Below, in pieces: positions 3,585 through 22,149 of a DNA stretch of 29,803 bases (position 1 is its first letter; each line of letters opens with the position of its first letter). The DNA comes from a virus. The notes under the pieces are model-generated. The model searched no databases and was not told where the DNA came from. It saw nothing but the letters and a program-made list of their open reading frames with translations. The stretch covers positions 1 to 29,803 of the IMG/VR virus record IMGVR_UViG_3300032223_001159; one strand, given 5' to 3'. A program made the translations under genes and the position numbers.

Positions 3585-4222
3585 TTTATTACCTTAGTAT
3601 AGTCCACGTCCTTGCTCTCAATGTCCGAGTAACCGTTCATTTGCGTTGCAAGCCCAACTAATGGACAATAAACATTGTACTGCTTATGCAATTGAGCATA
3701 ATATAAGTCAATAGGAATATTAGCGTGCCTAGTATAATGAATTAGATGCTCAAACATCGTGCTTCTAATGCCAACCGCGTGTGCCGTTAGTGTAAATTGA
3801 CATCTACCAACGGTATCATCAATTGGTATTAATGGTTCAACGTGATTTCCACCAAAATATACCATATCCCAGTTCTTCGGAACTTTATCTAAGAACGATG
3901 ATATAGCATGATTTGGACCAACGAAATCAACGTCATCTTCTAGAATAAGAATCTTATCTAGCTCAGCAAACTGCGAACCTCGGATTACAGCAATTTGAGA
4001 TAAAACGTTTCCATAATTTCCCATACTGATGGTTGACCAGCCGGGATGTGGGGGTTTACCGGGCTTAGTAGTAAGAGTATTACCATCAAACGCCGGAAAT
4101 CTTAAAGCATGAATACCTAAATACTTTGCTTGTTTGACAAAATGTTCCATGCGGTCAACACGTCTATCTAGATTGATAACCGTAATTTCATCAAAGAATG
4201 CCGATATCGTAGTCTCTGTCAT
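3581..4222 (-). CDS. Glycosyltransferase family 25 (LPS-type)
   Basis: Family 25 hallmarks are clear: an N-terminal EITVINLDRRVDRMEHF, which matches the V-I-N-L-x-R-x-x-D-R opening, and ILILEDDVDF at about residues 91-100, which provides the acidic metal/UDP-sugar motif. The family includes LPS galactosyltransferases and collagen galactosyltransferases using a GT-A fold. A longer reading frame exists upstream, but the real start is the ATG at 4222, read in a second frame through the tail of the DnaJ-zinc mini-protein (32-base overlap). The resulting protein is 213 residues with no signal peptide. It probably extends the same glycan as the GT2 and GT4 enzymes nearby. Confidence 0.85.
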   Translation of the reverse strand: MTETTISAFFDEITVINLDRRVDRMEHFVKQAKYLGIHALRFPAFDGNTLTTKPGKPPHPGWSTISMGNYGNVLSQIAVIRGSQFAELDKILILEDDVDFVGPNHAISSFLDKVPKNWDMVYFGGNHVEPLIPIDDTVGRCQFTLTAHAVGIRSTMFEHLIHYTRHANIPIDLYYAQLHKQYNVYCPLVGLATQMNGYSDIESKDVDYTKVIK

Positions 4223-4397
4223 CTTGTTTCTTTCTAGGAGGCTCTCCAGAACCATCACACTCTGGACACACATAGCTTTTCATAAATAGCTTCCAGAACT
4301 CATACCATTTAATAGGCTCACTATAGAAGCCGCGACCATCACACTTAAAACATCTATTTGGTTTTGGTGGAGGTCCGTTATATAACTTTACTATCAT
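4191..4397 (-). CDS. DnaJ-type zinc-finger mini-protein with C-terminal DYDIGIL tail
   Basis: This 68-residue protein has two C-x-x-C-x-G-x-G motifs, CFKCDGRG and CPECDGSG, about 28 residues apart. DnaJ uses four such repeats to bind two zinc ions; two repeats would make one site. There is no J domain, and the WYEFWKLFMKSY segment between the motifs is aromatic. The protein ends in DDRDYDIGIL, one of ten related C-termini in the window (coding bases 4194-4214). It is the only tailed gene inside the glycosyltransferase block, overlapping the GT2 gene by ATGA and the GT25 gene by 32 bases. A zinc-stabilised adaptor is the most I can infer. Confidence 0.8.
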   Translation of the reverse strand: MIVKLYNGPPPKPNRCFKCDGRGFYSEPIKWYEFWKLFMKSYVCPECDGSGEPPRKKQDDRDYDIGIL

Positions 4398-5200
4398 ATC
4401 ACGAGTCCGGCCTGCTTATCTGCCACACGTTGCCAACACTTATTCCAAATTTCCTTATCAACAGAATGTGTGGTATTTTTTCTTGATGTTCTAACTAGAG
4501 TTAGAGGTTCTGGAACATGGAGAATCATATACTTCTTACAAATACGTAACCACAAATCCCAATCTTCGGCAACCATAAGATTATTATCATAGTAACCGTT
4601 ATGGTCTTTTACTGCATTTAACGCTTCGGCGGTAACTAGGGAACCGCTATGTACAATACAGTTAGATTGTAGTCTTTGTGCCGAGAAAGGTTCTTTGTAC
4701 TCTCTAGTTGCAATACCAGTTTCAACATTAAGAACGTCATAGTCACCATATGCAGCGCCGATTACATTTGGTAACTGAGCAATCTCCTTAAATAGACGCT
4801 CTACCTTATTTGGCATCATTTCATCGTCCGCATCTAGAATAGCATACGCCCAAGTATTTTTAATGGTATAGTCAATACCAATATTTCTAGCAAATGACGG
4901 TCCTCGTTTTGCATCTATCTTAATAGCTGTAAAAGGAACGTCATGACCGTACTGGCTGCGAAGCATTACCTTCTTAATTTCGTACTCATGAGGCAAAATC
5001 TTTTCGTGCATCTTTCCCTTAAAGAAAGCTTTATATATGTTTTGCCATGAATTATCGGTTGAGTTACTATCAACTAGAGTAATTGCTAGATTTGGATATG
5101 TTTGTTTTAATGCGCTATTAACGCACCCAACAACCCAATCTTCGTAATTATAATTAGCTATCAATACATTAATTGGTGGAAGTGGATTGGATGTACTCAT
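4394..5200 (-). CDS. Glycosyltransferase family 2
   Basis: This 268-residue GT-A enzyme opens with NVLIANYNYEDWVVGCVNSA, the usual GT2 start. It continues with ITLVDSNSTDNSW, the acidic LDADDE at about residues 122-127 (D-x-D metal/nucleotide-sugar motif) and AEDWDLWLRICKKY, which matches the ED-x-x catalytic-base region. No membrane helices are present, so it is a soluble transferase. A clear ribosome site precedes ATG 5200, and the start overlaps the Cys-rich GT2-like gene by 32 bases. It is one of at least six transferase-type genes between 299 and 11411 and probably starts or extends a phage-encoded glycan. Confidence 0.9.
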   Translation of the reverse strand: MSTSNPLPPINVLIANYNYEDWVVGCVNSALKQTYPNLAITLVDSNSTDNSWQNIYKAFFKGKMHEKILPHEYEIKKVMLRSQYGHDVPFTAIKIDAKRGPSFARNIGIDYTIKNTWAYAILDADDEMMPNKVERLFKEIAQLPNVIGAAYGDYDVLNVETGIATREYKEPFSAQRLQSNCIVHSGSLVTAEALNAVKDHNGYYDNNLMVAEDWDLWLRICKKYMILHVPEPLTLVRTSRKNTTHSVDKEIWNKCWQRVADKQAGLVI

Positions 5201-5861
5201 TTATTTTCTCGAATGGTGATGGTTCATACATGAATTGTTTATATAGTATACGTGGGCAAACGTAAAACTCTTCAGACACAAATAGAATTCGCGGCTTAAG
5301 TTCTACATTAATTGAATTATCTATTTCACTTACTATCGCCTCATCATAGTCATGACCCGGATTAACGAACAGTAGAAACGTTGCGGTAGACTTATGAATC
5401 GCTGGTCGCAAGCGTAGACCGAGGTCTTCTTCAGTTGATATATTAGCTGAATACATCGAGTTTGGAAATAAACTAATAACTCTATGTATTAAGTCTCTTG
5501 CTCCAAAATCCGCAGCGTACTTAAAGCATACGTGTACTCTCTGTGGTTGAAAAGACTTACTTTGAATGGAACTTAGCGTTTTATAAATATCACTATAAGA
5601 TTCATCATTACACACCATGATAACATCATACGTTATCTTAAGCTCAGCGTTAACCTTTTCCTTGAGATTATCAAGGGTTGGGTCAAGAACGTATTCGTCC
5701 CAATATACGTTTCTTAGTGCCCTACAGTGGTCATCAACTACAAAATGATTACCCTCTTGATGATGTGGTAGCTTATCTAATCTATCAAGATGGCATCCGA
5801 CCTGAACAGAGTTTTCTCGCTTTGAGAATACACAGTGTTCACATAATGTTGTCATGCCCAT
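5169..5861 (-). CDS. Cys4 module fused to a GT2-like (GT-A) domain
   Basis: This 230-residue protein has two parts. Residues 1-50 hold four spaced cysteines (CEHC, then VQVGC, then DDHC), likely a small zinc module. Residues about 73-200 look like a minimal GT-A domain: ITYDVIMVCNDESYSDIYKT, a strand with PQRVHVCFK, and FLLFVNPGHDYDEAI in the D-x-D position. The usual D-A-D-D is replaced by NPGHDYD, so catalysis is uncertain. It starts at ATG 5861 after a GAGG site and overlaps its upstream partner by 10 bases. It may assist or pair with the complete GT2 gene that follows. From memory, similar Cys-rich N-termini occur beside GT2 domains in other phage proteins. Confidence 0.68.
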   Translation of the reverse strand: MGMTTLCEHCVFSKRENSVQVGCHLDRLDKLPHHQEGNHFVVDDHCRALRNVYWDEYVLDPTLDNLKEKVNAELKITYDVIMVCNDESYSDIYKTLSSIQSKSFQPQRVHVCFKYAADFGARDLIHRVISLFPNSMYSANISTEEDLGLRLRPAIHKSTATFLLFVNPGHDYDEAIVSEIDNSINVELKPRILFVSEEFYVCPRILYKQFMYEPSPFEKINEYIQSTSTN

Positions 5862-6280
5862 CTATGAGCCTCCACAACAAACGCATACTGATTAATACGC
5901 TTCTTGATAATTTTCATACCAGCGGCCTGTAGTATTTGCACTACCATAGGTAGCGTCATTGTATTTTCCTTGGGTCTATCTGTACCATTACCAAACAGGA
6001 TTCGGTTTAGTTCGACAACATTGAAGTCATCTCTAAGTAGGCACTTAGCCAATTCGATAGTATCAAGACCACCAAGAGTAATCTTTCCACCACGAGCAAT
6101 TTTCTTACATAGGTGCTGAATATACTGCTCAACGTTCGTGTAGTGAATATAGCTTAGTACATCTAGAGCTAAGATTTCTTCACACTCGCCATTTTCAGCA
6201 ATACCATCAAGATTCTTAACGAACCCAACATTCGTATATCCTTCTGCGTTCTCGCCGCCAACATTAATACATACCTTCAT
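5852..6280 (-). CDS. Methyltransferase-like protein with degenerate SAM motif
   Basis: This 142-residue protein has the outline of small methyltransferases from glycan clusters (L-N-x-G-C-G ... G-W-x-N-V-D ... L-x-H). Here they read VCINVGGENAEGYTNVGF, then EEILALDVLSYIHYTNVEQY, then KKIARGGKITLGGLD. The SAM-binding glycine motif has decayed: there is no G-x-G-x-G and the acidic strand end is lost. It may therefore be a non-catalytic or scaffold relative. It has a strong GGGAGA site and ATGA coupling to the gene before it. Its job is unknown; the fold is inferred from strand and helix order. Confidence 0.55.
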   Translation of the reverse strand: MKVCINVGGENAEGYTNVGFVKNLDGIAENGECEEILALDVLSYIHYTNVEQYIQHLCKKIARGGKITLGGLDTIELAKCLLRDDFNVVELNRILFGNGTDRPKENTMTLPMVVQILQAAGMKIIKKRINQYAFVVEAHRWA

Positions 6281-6750
6281 TTTATCTCCCTTGGTGGTAC
6301 AAACACCGGCATTTTAATTATCTCTAGTTCCTCTGGCTTAATAGTCAGATTATACTGTAACATATGTTCCTGCTTGCAGTATGCTGGCCAAGTCCTAATC
6401 AGCGTCTTGGCATGATGTGGCTTAGTCCATACTCCAGCGTCAGCCCAAATCTTAGTGTAGAACAGTCCACGATTTCTATGTTTTTTGTTTGCCACAAACT
6501 GACCAGTGATAATGTGCCGGATAGCGAATACATTATTATACTCTCCAGCTTGCATTAGTCCAGTGATTGGCACGATTTCTGCGTAATCTTTTCCAAGAAT
6601 TCTTAAAACGTGCTTCGGGCCACGAAGATTGCTCCATACAGAAGCGTTCTTTATACCCTCAACCCACCCACCACAATTACGAGCTAACGCCCGTTTGTAG
6701 TACTGTTCCCTATTTCTTTTACTTCTAATCATATAGAAAACTATGGACAT
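6277..6750 (-). CDS. Hypothetical protein
   Basis: This 157-residue basic, aromatic-rich protein belongs to no family I can name with confidence. The segment FAIRHIITGQFVANKKHRN, followed by GVWTKPHHAKTLIRTWPAY, resembles a short beta motif common in small phage proteins, in which a strand I-x-N-x-x-T-G-x-F is followed by W-T-x-x-x-x-A-K. The N-terminus is rich in Arg and Lys (RSKRNREQYYKRALARN), so nucleic-acid or polyanion contact is possible. No cysteine cluster or membrane helix is seen. It overlaps the GT4 gene by 10 bases and the next gene by ATGA, so it is translated with the glycan block. Confidence 0.55.
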   Translation of the reverse strand: MSIVFYMIRSKRNREQYYKRALARNCGGWVEGIKNASVWSNLRGPKHVLRILGKDYAEIVPITGLMQAGEYNNVFAIRHIITGQFVANKKHRNRGLFYTKIWADAGVWTKPHHAKTLIRTWPAYCKQEHMLQYNLTIKPEELEIIKMPVFVPPREIK

Positions 6751-7757
6751 GGATTAAACTCAGCTCCTTCTCGAAGAACCTTAGTCCAATTTGACTTAAA
6801 CTGCTCTAGATTAAACTTATCTAGGATTGTTTGTCTTGCATTTCGCCCTAGAAACTCTGCGTAGTCCTTGTCTTTTACAAGACGTTCTAGATGGCCACGA
6901 AGAACACTCTCGTCATTCGACATAAGCCCATTAACACCATCCTGAATGATTTCTGGAATCATACATGTTTCAGTTGTAACTATCGCACAACCACACGCCA
7001 TAGCTTCCATTAACGCTGTAGGAACCGGGGAAATTGTCGAGGTATTTAAGAAGATACGAGAAGTTCTATACTCTTCAACTAGATGAGATACGCTGCGTGC
7101 CGGATATGATAAGCCCGGAGTATCACCAAGAATTCTTACTGGTAGCCCGTTAGCGATTCTTTGGAATCCTGAGAAATTACAACACCAGTCTCTATTTATC
7201 CAGTCGTTTACTACACACAGCACATGTGGACTAGGTTCACCAGTCTTAAATTCTTCAGGAGTTGGGCAGAATAAATCTGTGTCTATTCCGTGGTGAACGA
7301 TTCTTACAGACGGGTCATCTAGGTCGAATCCCCATTCCCGAACCGAAAACTCAGAAATAAATACGTTAAGATGTCCACGCATTCTCCTAAGAGCCTCTCG
7401 CTGTTGTGGTCCCCATTGTGGAACTGGTAGAGTATGCTCAAGAGACACAAGCGGTATAGCAAATTGCGCAGACATTTGTCCTAGCACCTGAAATTGCCCA
7501 AACTTATTCTGCGAAAGTATAACGTCTATATCTTTATGGAGTGGTGCCATTTTAGATTTCAGCAACTTGTAATTGCTAGGAACTGGTCTGTAGTTCGGAT
7601 TCCATTTTTTGAAATTTTCATCTGGAACAGAATAAAAATCAAATCCGGTCGCACAGAGATTGGTTTCGTATGCTTCGTGCGTTGGTGCGGTTAAGATATT
7701 CAACTTCTCGTCTAGCAATCTAGTTGCTTGTCTTAGTATTGATGAAACTGGTGTCAT
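6741..7757 (-). CDS. GT-B glycosyltransferase (GT4-like)
   Basis: This is a 338-residue retaining-type GT-B enzyme. The linker signature VRIVHHGIDTDLFCP at about residues 150-165 is the standard start of the C-domain. VPTALMEAMACGCAIVTTE near residue 245 carries the E-x7-E-like sugar-nucleotide region, continuing into PEIIQDGVNGLM. The N-domain is short, matching its length against about 350-400 for typical GT4 proteins. It is soluble with no signal peptide. The TAATG junction at 7757 couples it to the small gene before it. It is one of three GT4-like genes in the block. Confidence 0.88.
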   Translation of the reverse strand: MTPVSSILRQATRLLDEKLNILTAPTHEAYETNLCATGFDFYSVPDENFKKWNPNYRPVPSNYKLLKSKMAPLHKDIDVILSQNKFGQFQVLGQMSAQFAIPLVSLEHTLPVPQWGPQQREALRRMRGHLNVFISEFSVREWGFDLDDPSVRIVHHGIDTDLFCPTPEEFKTGEPSPHVLCVVNDWINRDWCCNFSGFQRIANGLPVRILGDTPGLSYPARSVSHLVEEYRTSRIFLNTSTISPVPTALMEAMACGCAIVTTETCMIPEIIQDGVNGLMSNDESVLRGHLERLVKDKDYAEFLGRNARQTILDKFNLEQFKSNWTKVLREGAEFNPCP

Positions 7758-7963
7758 TAGAACTCCATCTTATCTAGTCTACTTGTATCTAACATTGCTC
7801 TTGTAATATATTGACCGTTAATTATTTCAAAACTAAAAGCAGCATTCCCATTCAATGCGAGAGCTTGCCCATAGTGACCTACTTTATACGGTTTAGTAAT
7901 CTTGCATCTCCAAGGCTCACAGCATATACCAGTGAGCGTTATTTCCATTCCAACTTCATTCAT
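7757..7963 (-). CDS. Small hypothetical protein
   Basis: This 68-residue protein has no recognised family. It looks beta-rich: MEITLTGICCEPWRCKITKPYKVGHYGQ, then NAAFSFEIINGQYITRAML. It has three cysteines (CC and C) too close together for a classic zinc ribbon. It sits between the P-loop kinase and a GT4 gene with one-base start/stop overlaps at both ends, so it is certainly in the translated operon. It lacks the shared C-terminal tail found on other small genes in this window. Confidence 0.6.
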   Translation of the reverse strand: MNEVGMEITLTGICCEPWRCKITKPYKVGHYGQALALNGNAAFSFEIINGQYITRAMLDTSRLDKMEF

Positions 7964-8433
7964 TAGAATAGCCCTCTTCTATCAATGTTCTCACATATAC
8001 GGGCCATATATTCCTGAAGACCAACCTCATGAATTTTCTGAATCTGCTGATTGATTCTCTGAATAGGACCAACTAGGTCCATCTGTCCAGTAGCATTAGC
8101 TCTCCTAATACATTCTTCCATAGGAGTATCGAAGGTAATAGCTACAGCACCACGGTCAATCTCTAGGAGTCTTTGGATACTAACTTCTGTTGAATGCGTT
8201 CCATCAACTATTACTGTGGAACCACGAGCAATATGGGCGCGAATCATGATATGCTTTATTGCAAAAACCATTGTTTCAGCTAGTGGCTCATAACGTTGTC
8301 CGTGCAAAGCAAGTCTGATATCATCAGAGCAAACAATAACACGATTTGGTTTTTCTTTTGCCCACTCTGTACAGAATGAAGATTTACCGCAGCGTGGCAT
8401 ACCTATTGTAAAATACAGTTTACTTTCTAACAT
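7963..8433 (-). CDS. P-loop kinase, polynucleotide-kinase-like (AAA_33)
   Basis: This 156-residue kinase has a Walker A at residues 11-18 (GMPRCGKS). It also has VIVCSDDIRLALHGQRYEPL, which matches the substrate-side D-D-x-R motif of T4 polynucleotide kinase and zeta-toxin-like kinases, and a later TVIVDGTHST in the Walker B region. Only the kinase domain is present; T4 Pnk also has a C-terminal HAD phosphatase, which is absent here. Likely roles are 5'-phosphorylation of nucleic acid ends or of a small nucleoside/sugar substrate. The exact substrate cannot be read from the sequence. Its ATG lies within the last codons of the preceding gene (7-base overlap). Confidence 0.78.
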   Translation of the reverse strand: MLESKLYFTIGMPRCGKSSFCTEWAKEKPNRVIVCSDDIRLALHGQRYEPLAETMVFAIKHIMIRAHIARGSTVIVDGTHSTEVSIQRLLEIDRGAVAITFDTPMEECIRRANATGQMDLVGPIQRINQQIQKIHEVGLQEYMARICENIDRRGLF

Positions 8434-8708
8434 GACGCTGGTGGCTCCATACCAAGACTAAGATTAGGAAATGCAGCAGAACTATTGTCGTTACTACACG
8501 TAACGCGAGGATTCTTGAGAAACTCATCTAATGGATTTGGTCTAGGACCAATCCAAACAGCACCGCTCGTCGCTCTATCTGGTGTTACTTTATTTAGAAC
8601 TAGAGACAAATGGTCCTTAATAACCTGTGTCTGAGCAGCGTCTAACTTTGTTGGATTTGCTATTTCCATAAATCCTTGTAGCCAGTACACAAAATCATTT
8701 GGTGTCAT
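8427..8708 (-). CDS. Conserved phage hypothetical protein (YWLQGF type)
   Basis: This 93-residue protein begins MTPNDFVYWLQGFMEIANP and continues LDAAQTQVIKDHLSLV. The pattern F-x-Y-W-L-Q-G-F-x-E, then Q-x-x-x-I-x-x-H-L, is one I remember from hypothetical proteins in many tailed phages; their function is not known to me. The C-terminal third is proline- and serine-rich and probably unstructured. It has an AAGGA site before ATG 8708 and overlaps the GT4 gene by 14 bases. Recognition is from memory and not from a search. Confidence 0.68.
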   Translation of the reverse strand: MTPNDFVYWLQGFMEIANPTKLDAAQTQVIKDHLSLVLNKVTPDRATSGAVWIGPRPNPLDEFLKNPRVTCSNDNSSAAFPNLSLGMEPPASC

Positions 8709-9789
8709 TAAGATATTCCTTCATTCTTAGACCAACATTTAGATGAGAATATGGACTAAGGTCAACCTTATTATCCAATGCTCCATAGGTGTAAGCATCT
8801 CTCATACACGCCTGAATACTCTCTATATTACCAGTGTACCACGTTTCTCTGGATGTTCCAATATGACTAAATGTATCATTCATACCGAACACAGGAGCCT
8901 CTGCCATTTCAAATCCGTAGTTTCCATCAGTATACGGAAACATACCTGCTGGATAGACACATGGCTTACCCATTGCTATGGCATCAAACAAAGGAATACT
9001 CCACGCCTCACCATGAGACGTTGTAACAAAGCAGTCACATGTTGCGTGTAACCTAAGAATATCTTCATCAGACATCCTATCAGCAATTACAACCTCAGAA
9101 GAGTAAGTTTCAATTTTATTGTACAGTTTCATTGACTGTTTAATCTTGGTGCATTCGTCAATAACAATCTGAGCGCACTCTTGTGGTGACGCGCCATGCT
9201 TACCAGTTTTAATTAGCAGTTTTATTGGTTCGTTTGGTGAGAATTCTAAATGGAATGCTTGGATGAGACTAAGCATATCCTTACGTTTATTTAGGTCACC
9301 TATTGTGTAGAATACAAAATTACCAGCTAGTTCTGGATGATAAATTTTCTCTCGTGGTTTGCTATACTGCGTTAGGTCAAATGCGTGTGGTACAACTCTA
9401 GTTGGAATATCAACAAGCATACTACTAAAGCAAATATCACAGAATTCCGTTGGAACCCATAGCTCATCCATAGTATTGATTTTTGCTGGCCAAGCGGACA
9501 ACGAAGCTCCAAATGACTCATATACACATAGCGCTATACTTTTTTCAAAGTTACCATTAAACTCCAAGTGATGCGGCAACACATGCTGAATACAGTGAGT
9601 GCAGCCTTTAGTTGACTTAGCTTCTAGCTCTAGAATTCTTTCTGGAATCTCTGGTTTATTAGAATCGCTAAGCTTAACTGCTCTAGGAACAACTTCAACT
9701 CCTGCGGCATCTAAGGCTAGGATATAATCCCTAGCTGCTTTACCCCAACCAGTTTGTTCCTTATAATGTCCTATATACAATACCTTCAT
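8695..9789 (-). CDS. GT-B glycosyltransferase (GT4-like)
   Basis: This 364-residue protein has both halves of a GT-B enzyme. The N-domain opens MKVLYIGHYKEQTGWGKAAR, with the glycine loop followed by YILALDAAGVEVV. The interdomain region RVVPHAFDLTQY and the C-domain strand FVFYTIGDLNKRKDM follow. DCFVTTSHGEAWSIPLFDAI near residue 255 is the donor-site E-x7-E-like region with the second acid as Asp. It is soluble. It overlaps the 541-residue GT gene by ATGA and is probably made in step with it. Confidence 0.87.
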   Translation of the reverse strand: MKVLYIGHYKEQTGWGKAARDYILALDAAGVEVVPRAVKLSDSNKPEIPERILELEAKSTKGCTHCIQHVLPHHLEFNGNFEKSIALCVYESFGASLSAWPAKINTMDELWVPTEFCDICFSSMLVDIPTRVVPHAFDLTQYSKPREKIYHPELAGNFVFYTIGDLNKRKDMLSLIQAFHLEFSPNEPIKLLIKTGKHGASPQECAQIVIDECTKIKQSMKLYNKIETYSSEVVIADRMSDEDILRLHATCDCFVTTSHGEAWSIPLFDAIAMGKPCVYPAGMFPYTDGNYGFEMAEAPVFGMNDTFSHIGTSRETWYTGNIESIQACMRDAYTYGALDNKVDLSPYSHLNVGLRMKEYLNDTK

Positions 9790-11411
9790 TGATTTTTCCT
9801 TAGTGATTCAGAACGCTTTTGTTCCCAATATTGCTTTTCTTCTAGTAGAGCGCCGAAGTGCTTTACTGCAACCTCTCTATCAAATGGAAGTAGAGACATT
9901 CCACGACCAGAAATATCTTCGTGATAATACTTACCATCAAATGACCTTGGAGCAACACCGTTAGATATATCTCTAATTAGTCTAGCTTCCATAAAGCTAC
10001 CAACAAATTCAGGAGCTTGTAGAACCTGTGTAATTAGAAATCTAGCAAACTCAGAGTTAGATGCGTTTTTAGGAACCTGAATGTTCATATTATACCGAAC
10101 GTCTGGTGCATTCCAAGGTTTCTTAGGTGCTGTGTTATTTAGGGCATCTAGCCAAATCCTAGCGATATCATCATAACTACGAAGACCATATAACATTCTT
10201 GAGAACTCGCCCTTTTCACGAAGTTCTGACTTACTCATACCCAAATAAGTCTTTAGTCCATTTAGGAAACTATGCGAATCTGGTAGAGCCATCATACGAC
10301 CAGTTTCTGGTTCCTTAAAGAAACCGACTGGTTTAATTGGATATCCATTAGACTGATGAATAATTTCACTCATAGCTGAATAATCGACACCCATTACAGG
10401 AATACCACACGCAATAGCCTCACCAAGAGGCATACCATATCCTTCGCATATAGCGTATTGAACGTAAACGTCCATAGCATTATATACAAGGTTCATCGCC
10501 TCGTTTGGAATACCATTTTGCGTGTTAGTAAATGTAGATGAGTTTCCGTTACCACATTTCTGACAGCTACTAAAAATACCTCTATAGAACGAGAATTCAA
10601 TATTCTTACATTGTGGATTTCTACACACATATGTGAATAGTACGCGGTCCATTACTCCATGCTCTAGAAGAAGCTCGTCAAGCTCCCAAGTATCAGGATT
10701 AGAAGTATGGCAAAGTAAAAACACATCTTTTCTTTTGCTCTCGCGTAGATAACGACTGAAGTCTCTGAATAGCTCTGGAAATAGCTTGCGGCGTTGATTA
10801 CGCATAACCGTACCAACGACTGTGATATCTCCAAGACCGATAGCCTTCTTGATGTCAGCTTTCTGTTCTTCTGATAGTGGCCTATATTCAGCAGATGAAC
10901 ATGGACTTGCTGCTGCGTGAGTATTCTTAAGCCCCGCTTCATTTAGAACATCAATTCCCCAGTCAGTATAAGATAGAAGCTTATCTGCTGTGGCATACAT
11001 ATCTAGCCATGTTTTATGTTGTGGAATCGCGTCTACTGCTGGCATAACTACGTGAGCAAAATACTTACGTAATGGGCTTCTAAACTGATACTCGAAGTGC
11101 CAAGAATCACGAATATCAATTACGTGCGTTGGCTGAAAATCAAGTAACACATCGTTAAATATACCAGCACCAAAAGCATTTAGTGGATTAGACTGAAATT
11201 GCTCTACCATTCTCTGGTCACTTCTCAAAGGTGCGACTGGATATACTCTCCACGGAACATTACGAATCCTTTGGTCGTCTGGACTACAGTAACATGCTAG
11301 TTCCGCAACTTCTACTCCCGGCACTTTATTTAGTCGGCTTAGTAGCTCTCTCATATAAATTGAGTATCCGCTACTTACCTGAGTAAATTCACCACACGCT
11401 AATACTTTCAT
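9786..11411 (-). CDS. GT-B glycosyltransferase (GT4-like) with inserted zinc ribbon
   Basis: This 541-residue protein opens MKVLACGEFTQVSSGYSIYM, a GT-B N-domain loop, and has the donor motif CEGYGMPLGEAIACGIPVMG at residues 322-341 (E323 and E331 as the E-x7-E pair). Between the C-domain start and that motif sits a four-cysteine cluster at residues 263-286 (C-x4-C, 14 residues, C-x2-C), a likely zinc ribbon that ordinary GT4 enzymes lack. The last 130 residues are an extra region of unknown fold. It is the largest gene of the glycan block and is coupled by ATGA to the 115-residue gene before it. Confidence 0.85.
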   Translation of the reverse strand: MKVLACGEFTQVSSGYSIYMRELLSRLNKVPGVEVAELACYCSPDDQRIRNVPWRVYPVAPLRSDQRMVEQFQSNPLNAFGAGIFNDVLLDFQPTHVIDIRDSWHFEYQFRSPLRKYFAHVVMPAVDAIPQHKTWLDMYATADKLLSYTDWGIDVLNEAGLKNTHAAASPCSSAEYRPLSEEQKADIKKAIGLGDITVVGTVMRNQRRKLFPELFRDFSRYLRESKRKDVFLLCHTSNPDTWELDELLLEHGVMDRVLFTYVCRNPQCKNIEFSFYRGIFSSCQKCGNGNSSTFTNTQNGIPNEAMNLVYNAMDVYVQYAICEGYGMPLGEAIACGIPVMGVDYSAMSEIIHQSNGYPIKPVGFFKEPETGRMMALPDSHSFLNGLKTYLGMSKSELREKGEFSRMLYGLRSYDDIARIWLDALNNTAPKKPWNAPDVRYNMNIQVPKNASNSEFARFLITQVLQAPEFVGSFMEARLIRDISNGVAPRSFDGKYYHEDISGRGMSLLPFDREVAVKHFGALLEEKQYWEQKRSESLRKNQ

Positions 11412-12093: not shown

Positions 12094-12094
12094 G

Positions 12095-12595
12095 TTAGTC
12101 CTCTCTTAGATATCTCTTTGTAATAACCTCAAAACCATCAACAACCTCTTTTGGAATCAAAGAGGCATTTCCCTTAACTGCAAATCTACTTAGAGCAATA
12201 TGAAAAACTGATTCTAAGTCTAGAGTCTTTGTTGCCGATGGCGCAGTAATCATTTCGATTAAACTAATCTTATGTTCGCCATCACTTATTGCATTGTCAC
12301 TACTATCAAACGCTCTCATTAGCGAGCTATCCATAGCACGATATTCCATCCTAGATGTTATATCTGTTGCAACTAGATATCTAAGAGCGTAGTCTGGACA
12401 TTCTATAGACTCGGACTTTGAACCATTGACATATACAGTTAACTTATCATCATCAAGTTCATATATTATATGTTCTTCTGGAATACTTAAAAAGATGTTT
12501 TTGGGAAGCTTCGTCATCAATCCTCTAATGTGGTCAACCATTATTACTTTTGCGAAGTAGTTAAGTCTGATGTGTTCTTCTTTTGCATCACTCAT
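12095..12595 (-). CDS. Hypothetical protein next to SSB
   Basis: This 166-residue acidic protein has no recognised domain. Features include an N-terminal helix region (HIRLNYFAKVIMVDHIRGLM), a beta hairpin (IIYELDDDKLTVYVNGSK) and a helical C-half with SVFHIALSRFAVKG. There are no cysteine clusters, P-loop or membrane segments. It is translated between the polymerase C-half (ATGA overlap) and SSB (one-base gap), so a replication-accessory role such as an SSB or polymerase partner is reasonable. This is inferred only from position. Confidence 0.55.
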   Translation of the reverse strand: MSDAKEEHIRLNYFAKVIMVDHIRGLMTKLPKNIFLSIPEEHIIYELDDDKLTVYVNGSKSESIECPDYALRYLVATDITSRMEYRAMDSSLMRAFDSSDNAISDGEHKISLIEMITAPSATKTLDLESVFHIALSRFAVKGNASLIPKEVVDGFEVITKRYLRED

Positions 12596-14205: not shown

Positions 14206-14206
14206 A

Positions 14207-15538: not shown

Positions 15539-15546
15539 TTAATTCC

Positions 15547-15765
15547 TTAGTCAAGAATCCCTAAGTCGTAGTCTACTCCGCATTGGTATTTTACGTGGTT
15601 GAATTCAGTAGCAAAACCACATTGGAATGTATAGTATTTATCACCATTTTGAAAACGGAACTCAGTTAGCACTCTACTTCCACAAAATGGACAACTACCA
15701 TTCATCGGTAATCCAGAAACATTAGAACCAACAATATTTTGTCTAGGTTCAATATTAGATGCCAT
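15547..15765 (-). CDS. Zinc-ribbon mini-protein with C-terminal DYDLGILD tail
   Basis: This 72-residue protein has a disordered N-terminus, then CPFCGSRVLTEF, and a second cysteine region FQCGFATEF ... YQCGVDYDLGILD. It looks like a one-zinc ribbon with uneven spacing. The last eight residues, DYDLGILD (coding bases 15550-15573), are the shared tail. Its start overlaps the stop of the previous tailed gene (TAATG), and its neighbour 15765-15986 has a similar CPFC beginning, so the two could be old duplicates. The tail codons TTA-GGG differ from those used by other copies. Function is unknown. Confidence 0.78.
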   Translation of the reverse strand: MASNIEPRQNIVGSNVSGLPMNGSCPFCGSRVLTEFRFQNGDKYYTFQCGFATEFNHVKYQCGVDYDLGILD

Positions 15766-15986
15766 TATTCAATTTCTCCAATATCAAAGTCGATATGAGC
15801 TTTACAAGTGCTTATGAGTATGGCACCGGAGTCGATACCATACCCACATAGAAATATACTTTTATCTACTCCATCAATAAAGTTTACTTTACTACCACAA
15901 CTACAAAACGGGCATGATAGTCTATATGGCTGAGAACTTGGGCTACCCAATACATTTTGATTTGGGTGATGTATCTCTTGTGTCAT
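15765..15986 (-). CDS. Zinc-binding mini-protein with C-terminal DFDIGEIE tail
   Basis: This 73-residue protein has an N-terminal HHPNQNVLGSPSSQPYRLSC followed by PFCSCGSKVNF and a further FLCGYG and STCKAH, giving cysteines enough for one zinc site. It ends in HIDFDIGEIE (tail bases 15768-15791). The GGAGAA inside the tail codons for Gly-Glu lies about nine bases before the next gene's ATG, so the tail DNA also carries the ribosome site for its downstream partner. Both ends overlap neighbours (ATGA and TAATG). It resembles the following gene in its N-L-x-G-S and C-P-F-C elements. Confidence 0.78.
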   Translation of the reverse strand: MTQEIHHPNQNVLGSPSSQPYRLSCPFCSCGSKVNFIDGVDKSIFLCGYGIDSGAILISTCKAHIDFDIGEIE

Positions 15987-16306: not shown

Positions 16307-16761
16307 AATAACTCCTCAATTGAAGTAATCGAACTCAGTAGTCGAGCATTGCTCGTAAATCTATCAATTGCGTATATCATCAAATCAGCGTTTTTATCAC
16401 CGCCCGCCGATATCATTTTACACGGCTTTTCGGTTTTGGTAAAGTTCAAAAGGTCGGAAGTTTTGATAATCCACAGTTCTCCGCAGATTTTATGGACCCA
16501 CCAATCAGCAGTTGTAGCTGTAATACCACTAGGTGTACCCTTTTTAGAGTTAAAATACTCTAATGCAACATTACCAGTCTTAGCTGACATTACATCATGT
16601 TTAACCTCAAAGGTAATTGTTCTGCACTCATGGTCAGCGGCTATATCATATAGTAGTCGCGTTTTTGGATTATCGTTCTTATATGGATAGAAACCTAAAC
16701 TTCTAAGAAAATCCATAACCTCAAGTTCAGCCTCATCACCAACCTTCATTGACTTTAACAT
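16303..16761 (-). CDS. PD-(D/E)XK endonuclease, resolvase-like
   Basis: This 152-residue protein starts with a helix containing E10 and E14 (VGDEAELEVMDFL). It then has YDIAADHECRTITFEVKHD, giving the D39 ... E52-x-K54 arrangement of the PD-(D/E)XK fold, followed by NVALEYFNSKKGTPSGI and TADWWVHKI. This resembles phage nucleases related to archaeal Holliday junction resolvases. It would cut branched or modified DNA during replication or recombination. Its start ATG 16761 overlaps the UDG-fold gene by 7 bases. Whether it resolves junctions or acts otherwise cannot be read from the sequence. Confidence 0.75.
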   Translation of the reverse strand: MLKSMKVGDEAELEVMDFLRSLGFYPYKNDNPKTRLLYDIAADHECRTITFEVKHDVMSAKTGNVALEYFNSKKGTPSGITATTADWWVHKICGELWIIKTSDLLNFTKTEKPCKMISAGGDKNADLMIYAIDRFTSNARLLSSITSIEELL

Positions 16762-17303: not shown

Positions 17304-17547
17304 TCAACTGCCCCTTATCAAGTACACTACGAATAAGCATAAACTTATCAACAGCAACATCCAGCTTGTAGTACACTTCAGAGAATCTAAATCGACTATC
17401 ATCACAGTCAACTTGATACTTGCGTTCTAGCTGGTCACGCATTTGTACGTGCTTACCTAAGTCGCAAATTGATAGTCTTCCAAAGTCAACGCCGCAACCA
17501 TTCTCGACTGCGTTCTTAACACTGTAATATAGCTTACTTCTGTTCAT
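17290..17547 (-). CDS. Small hypothetical protein
   Basis: This 85-residue protein is mixed in charge and probably helical, with LGKHVQMRDQLERKYQVD and FSEVYYKLDVAVDKFMLIRS as likely helices. It has three scattered cysteines and no clear metal site. It directly follows the N-terminal polymerase half (ATGA overlap) and overlaps the UDG-fold gene by 14 bases. Co-translation with the polymerase half suggests a link to replication. No family is recognised. Confidence 0.58.
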   Translation of the reverse strand: MNRSKLYYSVKNAVENGCGVDFGRLSICDLGKHVQMRDQLERKYQVDCDDSRFRFSEVYYKLDVAVDKFMLIRSVLDKGQLNDEA

Positions 17548-19445
17548 TCGTCATCCTCTACTTCCTGTGGTTCAATTTCAAATGTCTTTAGCGTTCCTGT
17601 TCTTAATAGAGAGTTAACGCCCATTAACTTATCTAATGTACTAAGACCCAAGATATCCCACTTAGGAACACCAGTCTTTTCTGCAAACTCATACTCAAGA
17701 CCAGCAATTAATGCTCCGGTCTTTTTATCATTTACCATCGGGCAAACATCAGCAATTCTCGTTGAGCCAATAACCAAAGCTGATGCGTGCTTACCATATG
17801 ACTTATAAGTTCCCTCAATTCTGATTGCTTGCTCAAAGTAATCCTTCATATAGCCAGACACAACACCGTCGTCGCTCATTGTTACCCATTCCTTTAGAGC
17901 GTCGGGGTCATTATGAAGCGTCCACCTAATAACGGAGTTTTCCTTTGCTTCTTCAAGCTTATCTGCGATTTCTTGTGTTTGAGGAATTCTCTTAGAGATA
18001 TCGTTCATTGTGTCATTATTACATGCGTTATGTACACGTAGAACCTGCTTAATAGCTCCGCGTCCCTGTAGGCTAGAAAATGTACAAACCTGAGATACAT
18101 TTTCCTCTCCGTATTTTTTGCTAATATACTCAAATACACGTTCACGGAAGGCAACTGGAAAATCTGTATCAATATCTGGTAGCGAAACTTTACCCGGAGC
18201 ATTTCTACCCTTATTATAGAATCGCTCGAAATACAGTTCGTAAACTACGGGGTCAATCGTAGTAATATCCAAAAGATACGATACTAGACACCCACCAGCA
18301 GAACCACGACCACACCCAACAAGTTGCCCCTGTGATTTGGCCCATCGAACATAATCCTGAACGATTAGGAAGTAGCCCTCTAGGTTAGCCTCATTGAAAA
18401 CACCAAGTTCCTGCTCGATACGTTCAACATACTCTTTTGTTCTGCCTAAGTCAAGTTTGGACGATAAGCGTTTCCATCCTTCTCTACAAAGCTGTCTCAA
18501 GTATTCCTTTTGGCTCATTCCATTTGGACAATCAAATGCTGGTAATGTAGGATTAGCTAGAATCGTATATGATTCACACATATCACTAACAAGCATCGAG
18601 TTCTTTAGTGTAGACTCGGAGTATATTTGTGACATTTCCTCGAATGTAGGAAGATGACAGTTATCATCATTAACGAATCTATTAAGATTGGCATACTGCT
18701 CTGTTTCAATAGATGTTGCAAGCTGATTAAAGTGAAACTTATTGTGCGAACAGATAAGGAGATTATGGTCAAACTTATCGCATTTGTTTAGGTAATACGA
18801 GTTAGGAACAGCAACACATTTAATACCATACATTTCCGCGTAGTACTCAATAGTGTCAGCAACGACACCATCAATTGGGCAAGCGGAAAGGTTCATTTTC
18901 TGGAGCGTTAGAATAAAGTTCTCGCCAAATGTAGACTTGTACTTCTCAAGTAAGTTTTTAACTGTTGTGGCGTAGTCAGTATGAAGAAAGTACGACGAGT
19001 ACTGTAGCGGATTCTTATTGGTATAAGCTAGTTGTTTTGCGACAATAGCGTTAGCGACAATAGAGTCTGGCTCACCGGCCATTACAAGCACATTCTTACA
19101 TGACCCTAGCTCATGAAAAAATATAGATGGAACGTCTTTGACGATATGGTTCTTGTCGTGCGATAAAGATGATATTGAAGATAGTTCTCGCCACCCAATT
19201 TTATTCTTAGCTATTACGGTTACGTAACCACCGTCATCCCTAATATAAATCTTGGAACCTAAAATCGGCTTAATGCCAGCTTTAACACAAGCTTCACTAA
19301 ATGCTACAACCCCGGAAAGCTTATCGAAATCTGTAATAGCAGCGCTACCAATATTTTTACTTGCCAAAGATTCTACTAGGGCATCTGGCTTAGATAGTCC
19401 GCGAAGTAGTGAGTAGTGCGTATGCAATGCTAACGGTGTATACAT
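17544..19445 (-). CDS. dnaE: DNA polymerase III alpha, N-terminal half (PHP and palm)
   Basis: This 633-residue protein holds the PHP domain and the catalytic palm. PHP opens LALHTHYSLLRGLSKPD and continues AITDFDKLSGVVAF and GIKPILGSKIY; TDF replaces the TDH of active PHP domains, as in E. coli. The palm has GCGRGSAGGCLVSYLLDIT around residue 380, PDIDTDF at 423-429 (D424 and D426) and KWDILGLSTL with D597, which correspond to the three catalytic aspartates. It stops soon after that, at EVEDDE, before the V-F-Q-L-E fingers region found in the gene at 12592-14205. It starts at ATG 19445 with GGAG upstream. No intein sequence is seen. Confidence 0.93.
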   Translation of the reverse strand: MYTPLALHTHYSLLRGLSKPDALVESLASKNIGSAAITDFDKLSGVVAFSEACVKAGIKPILGSKIYIRDDGGYVTVIAKNKIGWRELSSISSLSHDKNHIVKDVPSIFFHELGSCKNVLVMAGEPDSIVANAIVAKQLAYTNKNPLQYSSYFLHTDYATTVKNLLEKYKSTFGENFILTLQKMNLSACPIDGVVADTIEYYAEMYGIKCVAVPNSYYLNKCDKFDHNLLICSHNKFHFNQLATSIETEQYANLNRFVNDDNCHLPTFEEMSQIYSESTLKNSMLVSDMCESYTILANPTLPAFDCPNGMSQKEYLRQLCREGWKRLSSKLDLGRTKEYVERIEQELGVFNEANLEGYFLIVQDYVRWAKSQGQLVGCGRGSAGGCLVSYLLDITTIDPVVYELYFERFYNKGRNAPGKVSLPDIDTDFPVAFRERVFEYISKKYGEENVSQVCTFSSLQGRGAIKQVLRVHNACNNDTMNDISKRIPQTQEIADKLEEAKENSVIRWTLHNDPDALKEWVTMSDDGVVSGYMKDYFEQAIRIEGTYKSYGKHASALVIGSTRIADVCPMVNDKKTGALIAGLEYEFAEKTGVPKWDILGLSTLDKLMGVNSLLRTGTLKTFEIEPQEVEDDE

Positions 19446-19663
19446 TAGTAATCTTCTCCAGCGTCTTTTTCAATATAACTTTCAACTGTATCTGTTAGGT
19501 CTTGCAAACTCTCTTCAAGTGACTGTAACACTGGTTCGTACTTTGAGTAATTAAACCATAGTGGTATATCGCCAGCATTTATATATTTATGTACTAATGA
19601 GTCCCACGCAACTTTATCAGCATGTAGCATTTTACGTAATAGCACAATATCTGGATTTTCCAT
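19445..19663 (-). CDS. Small acidic hypothetical protein
   Basis: This 72-residue acidic protein has a helical look: DIVLLRKMLHADKVAWDSLV, then EPVLQSLEESLQDLTDTVES as a likely coiled-coil or amphipathic helix, ending EKDAGEDY. It sits immediately before the polymerase N-half with a TAATG junction, and after a tailed zinc protein with another TAATG. It has the acidic ending but not the tail motif of its neighbours. Function is unknown. Confidence 0.58.
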   Translation of the reverse strand: MENPDIVLLRKMLHADKVAWDSLVHKYINAGDIPLWFNYSKYEPVLQSLEESLQDLTDTVESYIEKDAGEDY

Positions 19664-19884
19664 TATTCTATTTTTCCTATATCAAAGTCGCGATTAAATT
19701 GGCATGGCGTAATTATATGATAGTGATGAATAGATTCTCTACCAAAAATATCCGCGTATTCTACAGTAACAGTATAATAAAGACCACACTCGAAACATTT
19801 AGATGTCTTAGTATTGTAAATACTTCCACATGAAATACATACTGTATTACCGTTAGTGTTTGTTGTAACTGGACTATTAGTCAT
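19663..19884 (-). CDS. Zinc-ribbon mini-protein with C-terminal DFDIGKIE tail
   Basis: This 73-residue protein has a typical one-zinc ribbon: CISCGSIYNTKTSKCFECG, giving C-x2-C, 10-12 residues, C-x2-C. After a polar N-terminus (TNSPVTTNTNGNT) and a strand YYTVTVEYADIFG it ends in NRDFDIGKIE (tail bases 19666-19689). Both junctions are TAATG-type. The tail uses ATA-GGA for Ile-Gly, unlike most copies. The ribbon resembles RNA polymerase or regulator zinc ribbons in spacing only. Host take-over or replication use is possible but not shown. Confidence 0.8.
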   Translation of the reverse strand: MTNSPVTTNTNGNTVCISCGSIYNTKTSKCFECGLYYTVTVEYADIFGRESIHHYHIITPCQFNRDFDIGKIE

Positions 19885-20123
19885 TAGATAATTCCTAAGT
19901 CATATCTATCAGATAGATTCGTGGAACAATCTGACTGTAATAACCTTCTACTTGACTCTTGATAATCTATCACAACACCACAGTCAATATGTATTGTCCT
20001 TGTACTTGGATTCGCAAGTCCACGAGCCGAACACTTAACACACTCATAAACGTACCCACAAGGATTAGCATCTTTAATGTACTTAATGTATTCGTCTTCG
20101 TTAACGTAATGCGGTTTAGTCAC
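19884..20123 (-). CDS. Cysteine-containing mini-protein with C-terminal RYDLGII tail
   Basis: I call a 79-residue protein from GTG at 20123, where the start overlaps the stop of the RecB-like gene and a GAGG lies six bases upstream. A longer frame exists, but its first 80 residues are the out-of-frame shadow of that nuclease gene. The protein reads MTKPHYVNEDEYIKYIKDAN, then CGYVYECVKCSARG and IHIDCGVVIDY, with enough cysteines for one zinc. It ends SDRYDLGII (tail bases 19887-19907), the most diverged of the ten tails (Arg instead of Asp before the aromatic). Confidence 0.72.
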   Translation of the reverse strand: MTKPHYVNEDEYIKYIKDANPCGYVYECVKCSARGLANPSTRTIHIDCGVVIDYQESSRRLLQSDCSTNLSDRYDLGII

Positions 20124-21237
20124 CGGGAGCCTCGTAGTGAGAAGTGCTAAAGCTTGGATTTTTATACTTAGCTGTAGCAGCATCAATACCAATTGTTTGA
20201 ATTTCGTTATGAATGTGCCTACAGGTATTGCAGTTAGTATTAGGAAGTCTTTCCTTATAGTAGTTGCATAACTTAGTACACTTAAAGCTAGATTGGTCTG
20301 GACTGCACATTTGAGGAATCTCACAAGCTCTAACCTCATCATAATGAGCCTTGAGACGTTCTTCAACTACTGGTAGGTGACTCTTCTCGAAGCACATCGT
20401 AAATGGCCCACCGTCACGTATAAAGAAGATGGTAATAATAATATTTTCGTACTCTGGAAACACCTTACATAAAGCATAGTAATACATCATAAGCTGAGTA
20501 TCATTACATAGCTTATCGTAGGTTTTTACTTCGCCCGTTGCCCAATCCAAACGCTGGCCGGTCTTCCAATCGACTACCTCCAGTGTATCCGAATCCAGTT
20601 CGGTAATCAAGTCCACGGTGCCTTTTATTCCAAAATTTCCCGCAAAATGTTCACCAATGGAATTTGTGTAATCGTACTTAGCCCAATCCTTCTCGATAAG
20701 CAAATCGAAATGCTTTTCTGGACACTTGATTGTTCTGAGTCGTGGGTCATATATACCACCACGATAATCTAGAGCAATCCATGTCCAATTAAGAACGTCG
20801 CGGAACGCAGCGCGAGTCCACTCTTCAGGAGACTTAGATGAGTAGTATTTAGATGACTCTTCCACAAGCCAATTAACAACTTCAACACCACGCCTAGTAT
20901 GACCAATAGTAATTGAAGCGTCTGACTTATAGATACTCTTACTAATACGTGACTTATTAATAAGAGTAATTTCATCTTCAGATAACACATATGGAGTTAA
21001 GAAGTCATTCTTATCAAATGATAGTTTGTCATCTATTACGATTCGCGTAGCATCAGGATTATTTTGAACATACTGCTTAGCGATTGCAAGCCATTCAAGT
21101 ACTTTATGTACCGCTGAACCCATATCAGCCTTAGTACTACTGGGTCTAAATAAACCTAGATTATACGTTAGAAAGTATTGCATCTGACAGAACTTAAAGT
21201 TTGCGTAACTTGATGACCTTGTATATGGTATAAGCAT
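20116..21237 (-). CDS. RecB/Cas4-like PD-(D/E)XK nuclease with likely Fe-S cluster
   Basis: This 373-residue nuclease has the RecB-family motifs in order: GSAVHKVLEWL (H44), GIKGTVDLITE (D209), LEVVDWKTG (D223, K225) and TQLMMYYYAL (Q248). One N-terminal cysteine (C17 in FKFCQMQY) plus a C-terminal cluster (C311, C320, C324, C336, C339) matches the split cysteine arrangement of the 4Fe-4S site in AddB and Cas4. It probably resects DNA ends for RecA-type recombination or degrades host DNA. Start ATG 21237 follows AGAAAGA with an 11-base gap from the previous stop, the widest gap in the window. Confidence 0.85.
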   Translation of the reverse strand: MLIPYTRSSSYANFKFCQMQYFLTYNLGLFRPSSTKADMGSAVHKVLEWLAIAKQYVQNNPDATRIVIDDKLSFDKNDFLTPYVLSEDEITLINKSRISKSIYKSDASITIGHTRRGVEVVNWLVEESSKYYSSKSPEEWTRAAFRDVLNWTWIALDYRGGIYDPRLRTIKCPEKHFDLLIEKDWAKYDYTNSIGEHFAGNFGIKGTVDLITELDSDTLEVVDWKTGQRLDWATGEVKTYDKLCNDTQLMMYYYALCKVFPEYENIIITIFFIRDGGPFTMCFEKSHLPVVEERLKAHYDEVRACEIPQMCSPDQSSFKCTKLCNYYKERLPNTNCNTCRHIHNEIQTIGIDAATAKYKNPSFSTSHYEAPGD

Positions 21238-21248
21238 TAATAGTCTTT

Positions 21249-21449
21249 CTAGTCTCTATATCCAATATCGTAATCAATGGGCGCTGGTCCCCAAACAATA
21301 TCAGTTTTCGCGGTCCTACTCATAATCTGTTTTGCTAATGCAACAAGTTTTTTGGTAAACTCACCCTCTTTACAAGGGGTTTCATACACAATAACATTTC
21401 TATTCACGATATCATTCAATGTATCCAATATCGAAGTCTCGTCTATCAT
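21249..21449 (-). CDS. Tailed mini-protein (tail DYDIGYRD)
   Basis: This 66-residue helical protein begins MIDETSILDTLNDIVNRNVI and has a basic middle (FTKKLVALAKQIMSRT). It ends PAPIDYDIGYRD (tail bases 21252-21275). The ATG at 21449 has AAGG nine bases upstream. A TTG at 21429 inside the previous gene's tail is an alternative start. It is the last of the five-gene tailed cassette. Here the next gene starts downstream of the stop, so this tail is kept without any overlap with a start codon. That argues for a protein-level role. No family is recognised. Confidence 0.7.
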   Translation of the reverse strand: MIDETSILDTLNDIVNRNVIVYETPCKEGEFTKKLVALAKQIMSRTAKTDIVWGPAPIDYDIGYRD

Positions 21450-21594
21450 CTTTTGATACCTTATTCAAAGTTAGCCTCATTACTTCAGATAATTCTTTTG
21501 CGGTTATACCAAACTGTTGCATAACTGTTGTCATTGATATAATATTGTTTGCTACTAACTGTGAAATTGTTTTTAACTTAGTATGTGATTCCAA
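21412..21594 (-). CDS. Tailed mini-protein (tail DFDIGYIE), TTG start
   Basis: This 60-residue protein (ESHTKLKTISQLVANNIISM, then QFGITAKELSEVMRLTLNKV) has a helix-turn-helix-like look in FGITAKELSEVMR. It ends RRDFDIGYIE (tail bases 21415-21438). The start must be TTG 21594: going upstream, a TAG stop is reached with no ATG or GTG, and AGGGA stands eight bases before the TTG. That ribosome site and the TTG lie within the codons of the preceding gene's tail. A small DNA-binding role is possible but weakly supported. Confidence 0.7.
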   Translation of the reverse strand: MESHTKLKTISQLVANNIISMTTVMQQFGITAKELSEVMRLTLNKVSKDDRRDFDIGYIE

Positions 21595-21781
21595 GGTCGT
21601 AGTCCCTATGTACTATGCGTAAGACACCATCTTTATCAAGATAATAATCAAAGTCAATACCAGCACCTAAACCAACTAACATTTCTGGATAAATTCCCGA
21701 TGGTTCAGATATATGTGACGACCAATTTTTGATGTCCTCTACTGCTTCTGGTGAAATGTAAATGTCAGTCAATGTACCCAA
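21578..21781 (-). CDS. Tailed mini-protein (tail DYDLGITY)
   Basis: This protein of about 67 residues has the body TDIYISPEAVEDIKNWSSHI, then YPEMLVGLGAGIDFDYYLDK and GVLRIVHRDYDLGITY (tail bases 21581-21604). There is no ATG start. TTG at 21781 sits at the same place in the previous tail as the well-supported TTG of the next gene. TTG at 21772 (giving TDIYISP...) and 21820 are alternatives. A second aspartate-aromatic element (DFDYYLDKDG) lies in the middle. No family is recognised; the fold is probably a small alpha/beta. Confidence 0.65.
   Translation of the reverse strand: MGTLTDIYISPEAVEDIKNWSSHISEPSGIYPEMLVGLGAGIDFDYYLDKDGVLRIVHRDYDLGITY
21592..21607 (-). promoter_or_regulatory. Ribosome site plus TTG start inside a tail-coding region
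   Basis: AGGGA (21603-21607) lies eight bases before TTG 21592-21594, all within the codons of the DYDLG part of the preceding gene's tail. A stop upstream and the lack of ATG or GTG make this TTG the only likely start of the 60-residue gene. Confidence 0.7.
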
Positions 21782-21962
21782 TGTCGTAATCTTGTTCTCT
21801 CTTAGAGAATTTACCTTCAAGCATAGCTAAAGCTTTTGCCACAACATCCCATTTAGCGTCCTGAATTTCTAATGTAAAGTCTTTTATAGACCCCATAATA
21901 TTGTAAGTAGGAACCTCAACTCGCGTTAGCTCTAGCTTTTTATTCAATGTATCCAAGGTCAT
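21765..21962 (-). CDS. Tailed mini-protein (tail DYDIGYID)
   Basis: This protein of about 65 residues (TLDTLNKKLELTRVEVPTYN, then IQDAKWDVVAKALAMLEGKF) ends REQDYDIGYID (tail bases 21768-21791). ATG 21962 lies inside the previous gene's tail. A TTG six bases later (21956) has AGGAG at the ideal eight-base distance and may be the true start, as in the next genes. A longer frame upstream is the shadow of the preceding gene. Two amphipathic helices are likely. No family is recognised. Confidence 0.68.
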   Translation of the reverse strand: MTLDTLNKKLELTRVEVPTYNIMGSIKDFTLEIQDAKWDVVAKALAMLEGKFSKREQDYDIGYID

Positions 21963-22149
21963 AGCTCCTAGAATGAAATGGCTGATACTGTCCTGTATCA
22001 TCTTTATAGAATGGTAGTGTACCAGAATGACCATAATCGCTACCCATGTAGTTATAAGCATCTGGATACTCAGATAGTATCTTCATTAACTCATCGCCAC
22101 GAATGGGTAGGTATGTGATTTCTGTGTTTATTAGGCTTATTGTAGCCAT
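21940..22149 (-). CDS. Tailed mini-protein (tail SYDLGYIE)
   Basis: This 69-residue protein is the first transcribed gene of the tailed cassette. Its body, MATISLINTEITYLPIRGDE, then LSEYPDAYNYMGSDYGHSG and TGQYQPFHSRSYDLGYIE (tail bases 21943-21966), is rich in Tyr and Ser. The start ATG 22149 has AAGGAG five bases upstream, located within the last codons of the dNMP kinase gene (13-base overlap). It has Ser in place of Asp before the aromatic residue of the tail. Its body is not visibly related to those of the other four cassette genes. Confidence 0.72.
   Translation of the reverse strand: MATISLINTEITYLPIRGDELMKILSEYPDAYNYMGSDYGHSGTLPFYKDDTGQYQPFHSRSYDLGYIE
21954..21969 (-). promoter_or_regulatory. 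Ribosome site plus TTG/ATG start inside a tail-coding region
   Basis: AGGAG (21965-21969) stands eight bases before TTG 21956 and only two bases before ATG 21962. The spacing favours the TTG as the start of the 21765 gene. The whole element lies in the RSYDLG codons of the preceding gene. Confidence 0.5.

Follow-up and report, generated by a model that had tools for sequence, protein, structure and literature searches.

Ten small phage proteins with a common C-terminal peptide, three of them containing segments of a major capsid protein

The internal proteins of T4-type phages are small and highly diverse, and have one short conserved capsid targeting sequence (CTS) in common (PMC3012670). 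In Cluster K mycobacteriophages, the SAS repeat lies at many small non-structural genes beside their translation starts (PMC3203893), the satellite SaPIbov5 encodes Ccm, a capsid-protein homologue that redirects capsids (PMC8569155), and CapRel binds the P-domain sheet and the spine helix of a phage major capsid protein (MCP; PMC9712102). Here we analyzed a 29.8 kb virus record (IMG/VR record IMGVR_UViG_3300032223_001159, positions 1 to 29,803; the whole stretch is called the window below), in which ten mini-proteins end with nearly the same C-terminal tail and three of these have bodies that contain segments of an MCP. The window is a fragment that does not contain this phage's own MCP.

Similar to the T4 system, the window has one short peptide on diverse small phage proteins. 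The T4 CTS is N-terminal and leads to packaging, whereas the tails of the window are all C-terminal and stand in a replication operon. Ccm is likewise a capsid-protein relative in the form of an accessory gene, but it is the homologue of a satellite, while the MCP segments of the window are split over tagged mini-proteins of a phage with its own replication genes; CapRel contacts roughly the MCP region present in two of the pieces (B and E below), although it belongs to the host side and the window's proteins to the phage side; and the SAS is conserved at the DNA level just upstream of start codons, in contrast to a tail that is kept at the amino-acid level with free third positions. The final residues of the tails are D, E, L, I, or Y, and none of them ends in PF, as the acidic SSB-type tail (DDDIPF) does. 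Within the excerpted literature that was searched, no decoy made of MCP pieces was found. MCP segments distributed over separate, co-tagged mini-genes match no system found by or known to us.

The window is a tightly packed phage replication and glycosyltransferase region, almost wholly on the minus strand. The pattern [DRS][YF]D[IL]G, followed by two to three residues and the stop codon, closes ten open reading frames (ORFs) of roughly 60–100 amino acids, all on the minus strand and all with the tail peptide abutting the stop, exactly where the original prediction had located ten such tails. Based on composition, 0.005 endings of this kind would be expected by chance among ~50 genes, and a six-frame scan for [YF]D[ILVM]G no more than five residues from the end of an ORF recovered a single further case, at 26804, where the ORF has nine codons. 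Five of the mini-genes (A to E) form one block: A (21940–22155, ~70 aa, Tyr-rich, tail SYDLGYIE at 21943–21966), which starts within the 3′ end of the upstream gene 22137–22919; B (21765–22061, 98 aa from the first ATG, tail DYDIGYID at 21768–21791), for which a later ATG inside the tail of A is the likelier start; C (21578–21820, tail DYDLGITY at 21581–21604); D (21412–21594, ~60 aa from an uncertain TTG start, helical, tail DFDIGYIE at 21415–21438); and E (21249–21449, 66 aa, tail DYDIGYRD at 21252–21275). The other five, named by their first coordinate, comprise three zinc-ribbon-like proteins (15547–15765, 72 aa, tail DYDLGILD at 15550–15573; 15765–15986, 73 aa, tail DFDIGEIE at 15768–15791, with the next start within TAATG; 19663–19884, 73 aa, tail DFDIGKIE at 19666–19689), a Cys-rich protein (19884–20150, tail RYDLGII at 19887–19907), and a DnaJ-type CxxCxGxG-like protein (4191–4397, 68 aa, tail DYDIGIL at 4194–4214), whose end overlaps, in the +1 frame, the N-terminal coding region of the gene that follows, which by eye is a GT25-like glycosyltransferase. 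Starts are uncertain (TTG or unclear) for C, D, and 19884, which makes the lengths of these three approximate. Scans of all ten proteins with Pfam and PHROG returned nothing beyond weak zinc matches, among them one of 4191 to DnaJ_CXXCXGXG under the cut-off. The bodies, described as unrelated in the original prediction, do fall into at least six types; nevertheless, 15547 and 15765 share QNxxGS..SCPFC and seem, by eye, to be paralogues, and B, C, and E derive from different pieces of one MCP family.

Selection on the peptide, instead of a recent DNA repeat, had also been proposed, and the codons agree with this. Over the four invariant codons, tail identity was 0.84, 0.88, and 0.45 at codon positions 1, 2, and 3, and pairs of tails with the same residue used the same codon in 0.479 of cases, as compared with 0.465 expected from genome usage (simulation, P = 0.37). 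Because the tail codons are as varied as genome usage, these data support a tail that is kept as amino acids, with no extra conservation of its DNA. The tail DNA could alternatively be the Shine-Dalgarno or start region of the next gene, read in the upstream frame, a disfavoured and highly improbable explanation for the window. Its Gly codon does lean towards the purine-rich forms (GGA or GGG in 9/10 tails, never GGT), but untailed gene ends of the window lean similarly (GGA or GGG in 10/15), so that the lean itself reflects the next gene's ribosome site; the tail codons are otherwise as diverse as those of the genome, and no nucleotide conservation beside the start codon, as in the SAS or in ribosome-site repeats, was found in the window tails. 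Moreover, three junction types occur: the next gene overlaps through the tail in the +1 frame (4191, 21412, 21578, 21765, and 21940), begins in TAATG (15765, 19663, and 19884), or follows after a gap (15547 and 21249). Programmed frameshifting through the tails was ruled out, as the neighbours of tailed genes lie in differing frames and the codons are variable.

A motif-free search over the loci compared yielded a second shared-tail case, in a syntenic phage, for which the ribosome-site explanation holds in part. It is an array of ~14 tiny tandem ORFs, extending from record position 39563 (L108) to 41959 (L109) of IMGVR_UViG_3300029925_000021 and identical in 3300029807_000001, i.e., it is carried by two contigs (G018 and G019) that are identical over that region. 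Most of its ORFs begin with MA[NK], MVN, or MGN and end with [KR]xxERLYGK, and the tail DNA (GGGAGCGTYTNTATGGCAAA) doubles as the following gene's Shine-Dalgarno and ATG, a position similar to that of the SAS. Accordingly, Tyr is encoded by TAT in the copies that require the ATG and by TAC in the sole copy without a start. The Leu codons, however, are free (same codon 0.18 vs. 0.20 expected), and the ERLYGK peptide is also present internally in two array proteins where no gene starts. Since these internal copies persist, ERLYGK seems to be likewise kept as a peptide.

The capsid connection came from the bodies of B and C, which have homologues among the small proteins of L043 and L117 and, as found subsequently, in a protein of ~336 aa encoded by seven large phages. 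This family matches the major head protein gp27 of phage G (PDB 6wkk, E 1.9e−10) and, weakly, a major-head PHROG, and by these similarities is an MCP. With a first MCP profile, three of the 571 window ORFs scored above threshold: B (MCP 95–145, E 6e−9), E (MCP 141–188, E 1e−7), and C (MCP 195–217, E 1e−6). A profile built from 83 MCP sequences recovered the same three, whereas shuffled controls gave 0/500 matches. The segments by this hidden Markov model are RVEVPTYNIMGSIKDFTLEIQDAKWDVVAKALAMLEGKFSKREQ in B (21792–21923, minus strand; MCP ~95–146, E 2e−8), VNRNVIVYETPCKEGEFTKKLVALAKQIMSRTA in E (21309–21407, minus strand; MCP ~153–189, E 5e−7; blastp 48% over 33 aa), and LGTLTDIYISPEAVEDIKNW in C (21722–21781, minus strand; MCP ~192–218, E 7e−7; blastp 74% over 19 aa), with the first residues of the segment in C sharing DNA, in another frame, with the tail of B. 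When B, E, and C were joined in MCP order, solely as a search query, the resulting 122 residues aligned nearly gap-free with MCPs at ~41% identity and retrieved hundreds of them (best E 3e−29). The alignments thereby show B, E, and C as consecutive, non-overlapping MCP pieces, covering the putative spine-helix region and the part that follows; the position of the spine helix was set by analogy with the HK97 fold and not from a model. Their genomic order is permuted, running B (MCP 95–145), C (192–218), D (no match), and E (153–189). All three have significant matches to the family and none holds a full-length MCP in one gene, i.e., by sequence they are fragments and not an MCP.

The core of the tail also resembles a conserved motif of the same protein, PT[YF]D[IV]G[AS]SI[DE], which by analogy sits just before the spine helix. 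Its form [YF]D[ILV]GxxI[DE] occurs in 57 of the 83 MCPs, as compared with 0.0045 expected per protein. The commonest reading of the tail, [YF]D[IL]GxI[DE], is one residue shorter, and a resemblance of this degree has a post hoc chance of ~0.005. In the ERLYGK phage, RLYG of the tail similarly resembles RAGLYGWAE in that phage's own MCP (chance ~0.014, also post hoc). We consider the resemblance of tails to capsid motifs in both phages a lead.

No near-identical phage was found. Two strict DNA patterns of the tail, searched in 2.9 million IMG/VR contigs, gave one match, which lay in no recognisable gene, and none, respectively, and the tail was absent from the syntenic phages with a split DnaE that were retrieved with DnaE and RecA profiles. 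In 257 Gb of bacterial genomes only five matches were obtained, of which three close ORFs of 26–62 codons and two close related 385-aa proteins of Bacilli; they were taken as coincidence. The latter two, from Bacilli metagenome-assembled genomes of roe deer omasum (L205 and L207), are homologous ~385-aa proteins with the exact terminus DFDIGYID. The proposed enrichment search thus finds the tail in no other phage, and by these searches it is lineage-specific and private to this phage, not a general phage tag. A tag for stability or degradation that a host protease or its adaptor recognises, limiting early proteins in time, would fit the C-terminal position and the small proteins of the early region; we regard it as very unlikely, given acidic D/E ends unlike those of known ssrA-type degrons and the rarity of the tail in bacterial genomes.

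Full-length homologues of the tailed proteins were found in none of the relatives, so the tag idea withstood the check for full-length homology that had been proposed to refute it. The relatives compared are distant (DnaE ~40%), and a search of the remaining tailed bodies against 16 of them, made without a positive control, gave nothing at E ≤ 1. Where homologous bodies do occur in relatives, they have no tail, and in the window the tail stands in place of the homologous terminus of the L117 relative; because of this, the tail is shown by comparison to be separable from the body. Such a replacement, together with conservation of the peptide on at least six body types, would also be expected from the main rival explanation, a generic docking or sorting tag in the manner of the T4 CTS, with one phage or host partner, no capsid meaning, and capsid pieces that are incidental. 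This remains doubtful to us: no partner was found, and it leaves unexplained both the three bodies with neighbouring MCP pieces and the likeness of the tail to an MCP motif.

MCP pieces in small proteins are also found in two other syntenic phages. Contig G016 encodes four such proteins (E 3e−17 to 2e−7), with MCP residues 79–154, 306–332 plus 205–233, 148–222, and 108–143 plus 295–318 and with a Tat-like N-terminus in front of the pieces in two of the four, and L043 encodes one. Small proteins of one to three MCP segments, sometimes scrambled, were located at L116:3731–4339, L117:16935–17387, L117:5264–5701, L026:8410–8823, and L043:1417–1602. Tat-like N-termini (KRRDFLK, KRDFIK) are present in three of these five. 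Mini-proteins made of capsid pieces recur, as do shared tails, and the two are combined in this window only. Such mosaic proteins in related phages, the partial and permuted MCP pieces of the window, and the common starts as well as ends in the G018 array could also point to a decayed array of copies of a mini-gene cassette, in which bodies were swapped for stray gene fragments (capsid pieces, zinc ribbons) and the tail is a functionless surviving end. This is improbable, as neutral leftovers would not show saturated synonymous positions together with fixed residues, the frames are open and tightly packed, and tails occur at distant sites too (4191, 15547, and 19663). A further idea, that the pieces replace an intact MCP, may apply to the window, to the 86 kb of G016, and to the L043 contig, where no intact MCP was found; G019 has no need of it, as an intact MCP is encoded there in addition to the array, though the array bodies match that MCP only marginally and are not clear MCP pieces. 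The W-L-x-x-A-E-R tails of L017, L030, and L031 were discarded as a further case, since in G007 and G011 the similar pairs that were checked proved homologous along their bodies, i.e., paralogues.

The three MCP-segment bodies and the capsid-motif-like core of the tail together indicate capsid mimicry or docking, and point to this instead of the docking to SSB, DnaB, or polymerase considered originally. We tentatively favour, as somewhat more likely to be wrong than right, that the tailed proteins are MCP-mimicking mini-proteins with a common docking peptide. Each would present an MCP fragment or an accessory domain, the common tail would imitate the motif ahead of the spine helix, and all of them would engage one partner, the normal binder of that part of the MCP, which might be the phage's own assembling head, the head of a competitor, or a CapRel-type host sensor that detects capsid protein. 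We lean towards early-made decoys or assembly modulators without choosing between the two: an immune decoy is a reasonable guess because the region of the pieces roughly equals the P-domain sheet and spine helix bound by CapRel, and an action on head assembly, by analogy with Ccm, is equally plausible. Several observations weigh against MCP mimicry. Apart from the tail itself, seven of the ten proteins show no similarity to the MCP, and the phage's own MCP lies outside the fragment. The likeness of the tail to the MCP motif is short and post hoc, with a chance of 0.14 over seven ungapped residues, which is not unusual, and the corresponding site in piece B reads YNIMGSIK and not YDIG. AlphaFold gave a poor model for the MCP (pLDDT 37). 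In the other phages, the MCP pieces of G016 and L043 have no shared tail, and the bodies of the G018 array are not convincingly MCP-like (one marginal match of 14, P 0.006).

Most tailed mini-proteins lie in blocks between core replication genes. The window and its relatives have in common the order RecA, DnaB-like helicase, primase, kinase, PD-D/EXK, DnaE-N, exonuclease, DnaE-C, SSB, with names mostly assigned by eye. On the minus strand of the window, the kinase-like gene (22137–22919, named by eye) precedes the five-gene block, the PD-D/EXK-like gene (20116–21237, named by eye) separates two mini-protein blocks, and the DnaE N-terminal half (17544–19445) served as the query for syntenic relatives. 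In L017, kinase, PD-D/EXK, and DnaE-N are adjacent with four-base overlaps, while the window has five and two tailed mini-genes at these junctions, which therefore are insertions between core genes. DnaE is encoded by two separate genes in the window (17544–19445 and 12592–14205) and likewise in the related phages examined. A long run of glycosyltransferase- and methyltransferase-like genes (299–11411) follows immediately downstream of the replication genes. SSB-type tails close the helicases of L017, L031, and L036 (EEIPFV, QEIPFI, or DEIPFD) and the SSBs of L036 and L117 (DDDIPF or DEDIPF), and are missing from the SSB and helicase of the window. The nearest kin by RecA (68%), L119 (IMGVR_UViG_3300032143_000264), does not extend to the tailed genes; past its RecA-side genes there is a minus-strand ORF (2437–3033) and no complete long ORF at the expected place of the helicase. 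In G003, G005, G008, G014, G017, and G020, the RecA matches are interrupted after about residue 80 by a long insertion; these insertions, mostly open frames of up to ~670 aa, are possibly inteins near the Walker A motif.

As a generalisation that we consider unlikely, some phages may encode early sets of mini-proteins that combine an MCP piece with a shared capsid-motif tail and either act as decoys for immune systems that sense capsids or poison or guide head assembly, with a tail that differs by phage and perhaps derives from different conserved capsid motifs. If the proteins serve as decoys, a phage would counter capsid-sensing immunity with them; if assembly is what they act on, they would let a phage tune or block heads. 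Either way, the MCP or its sensors become a concrete candidate partner for small phage genes that are otherwise anonymous.

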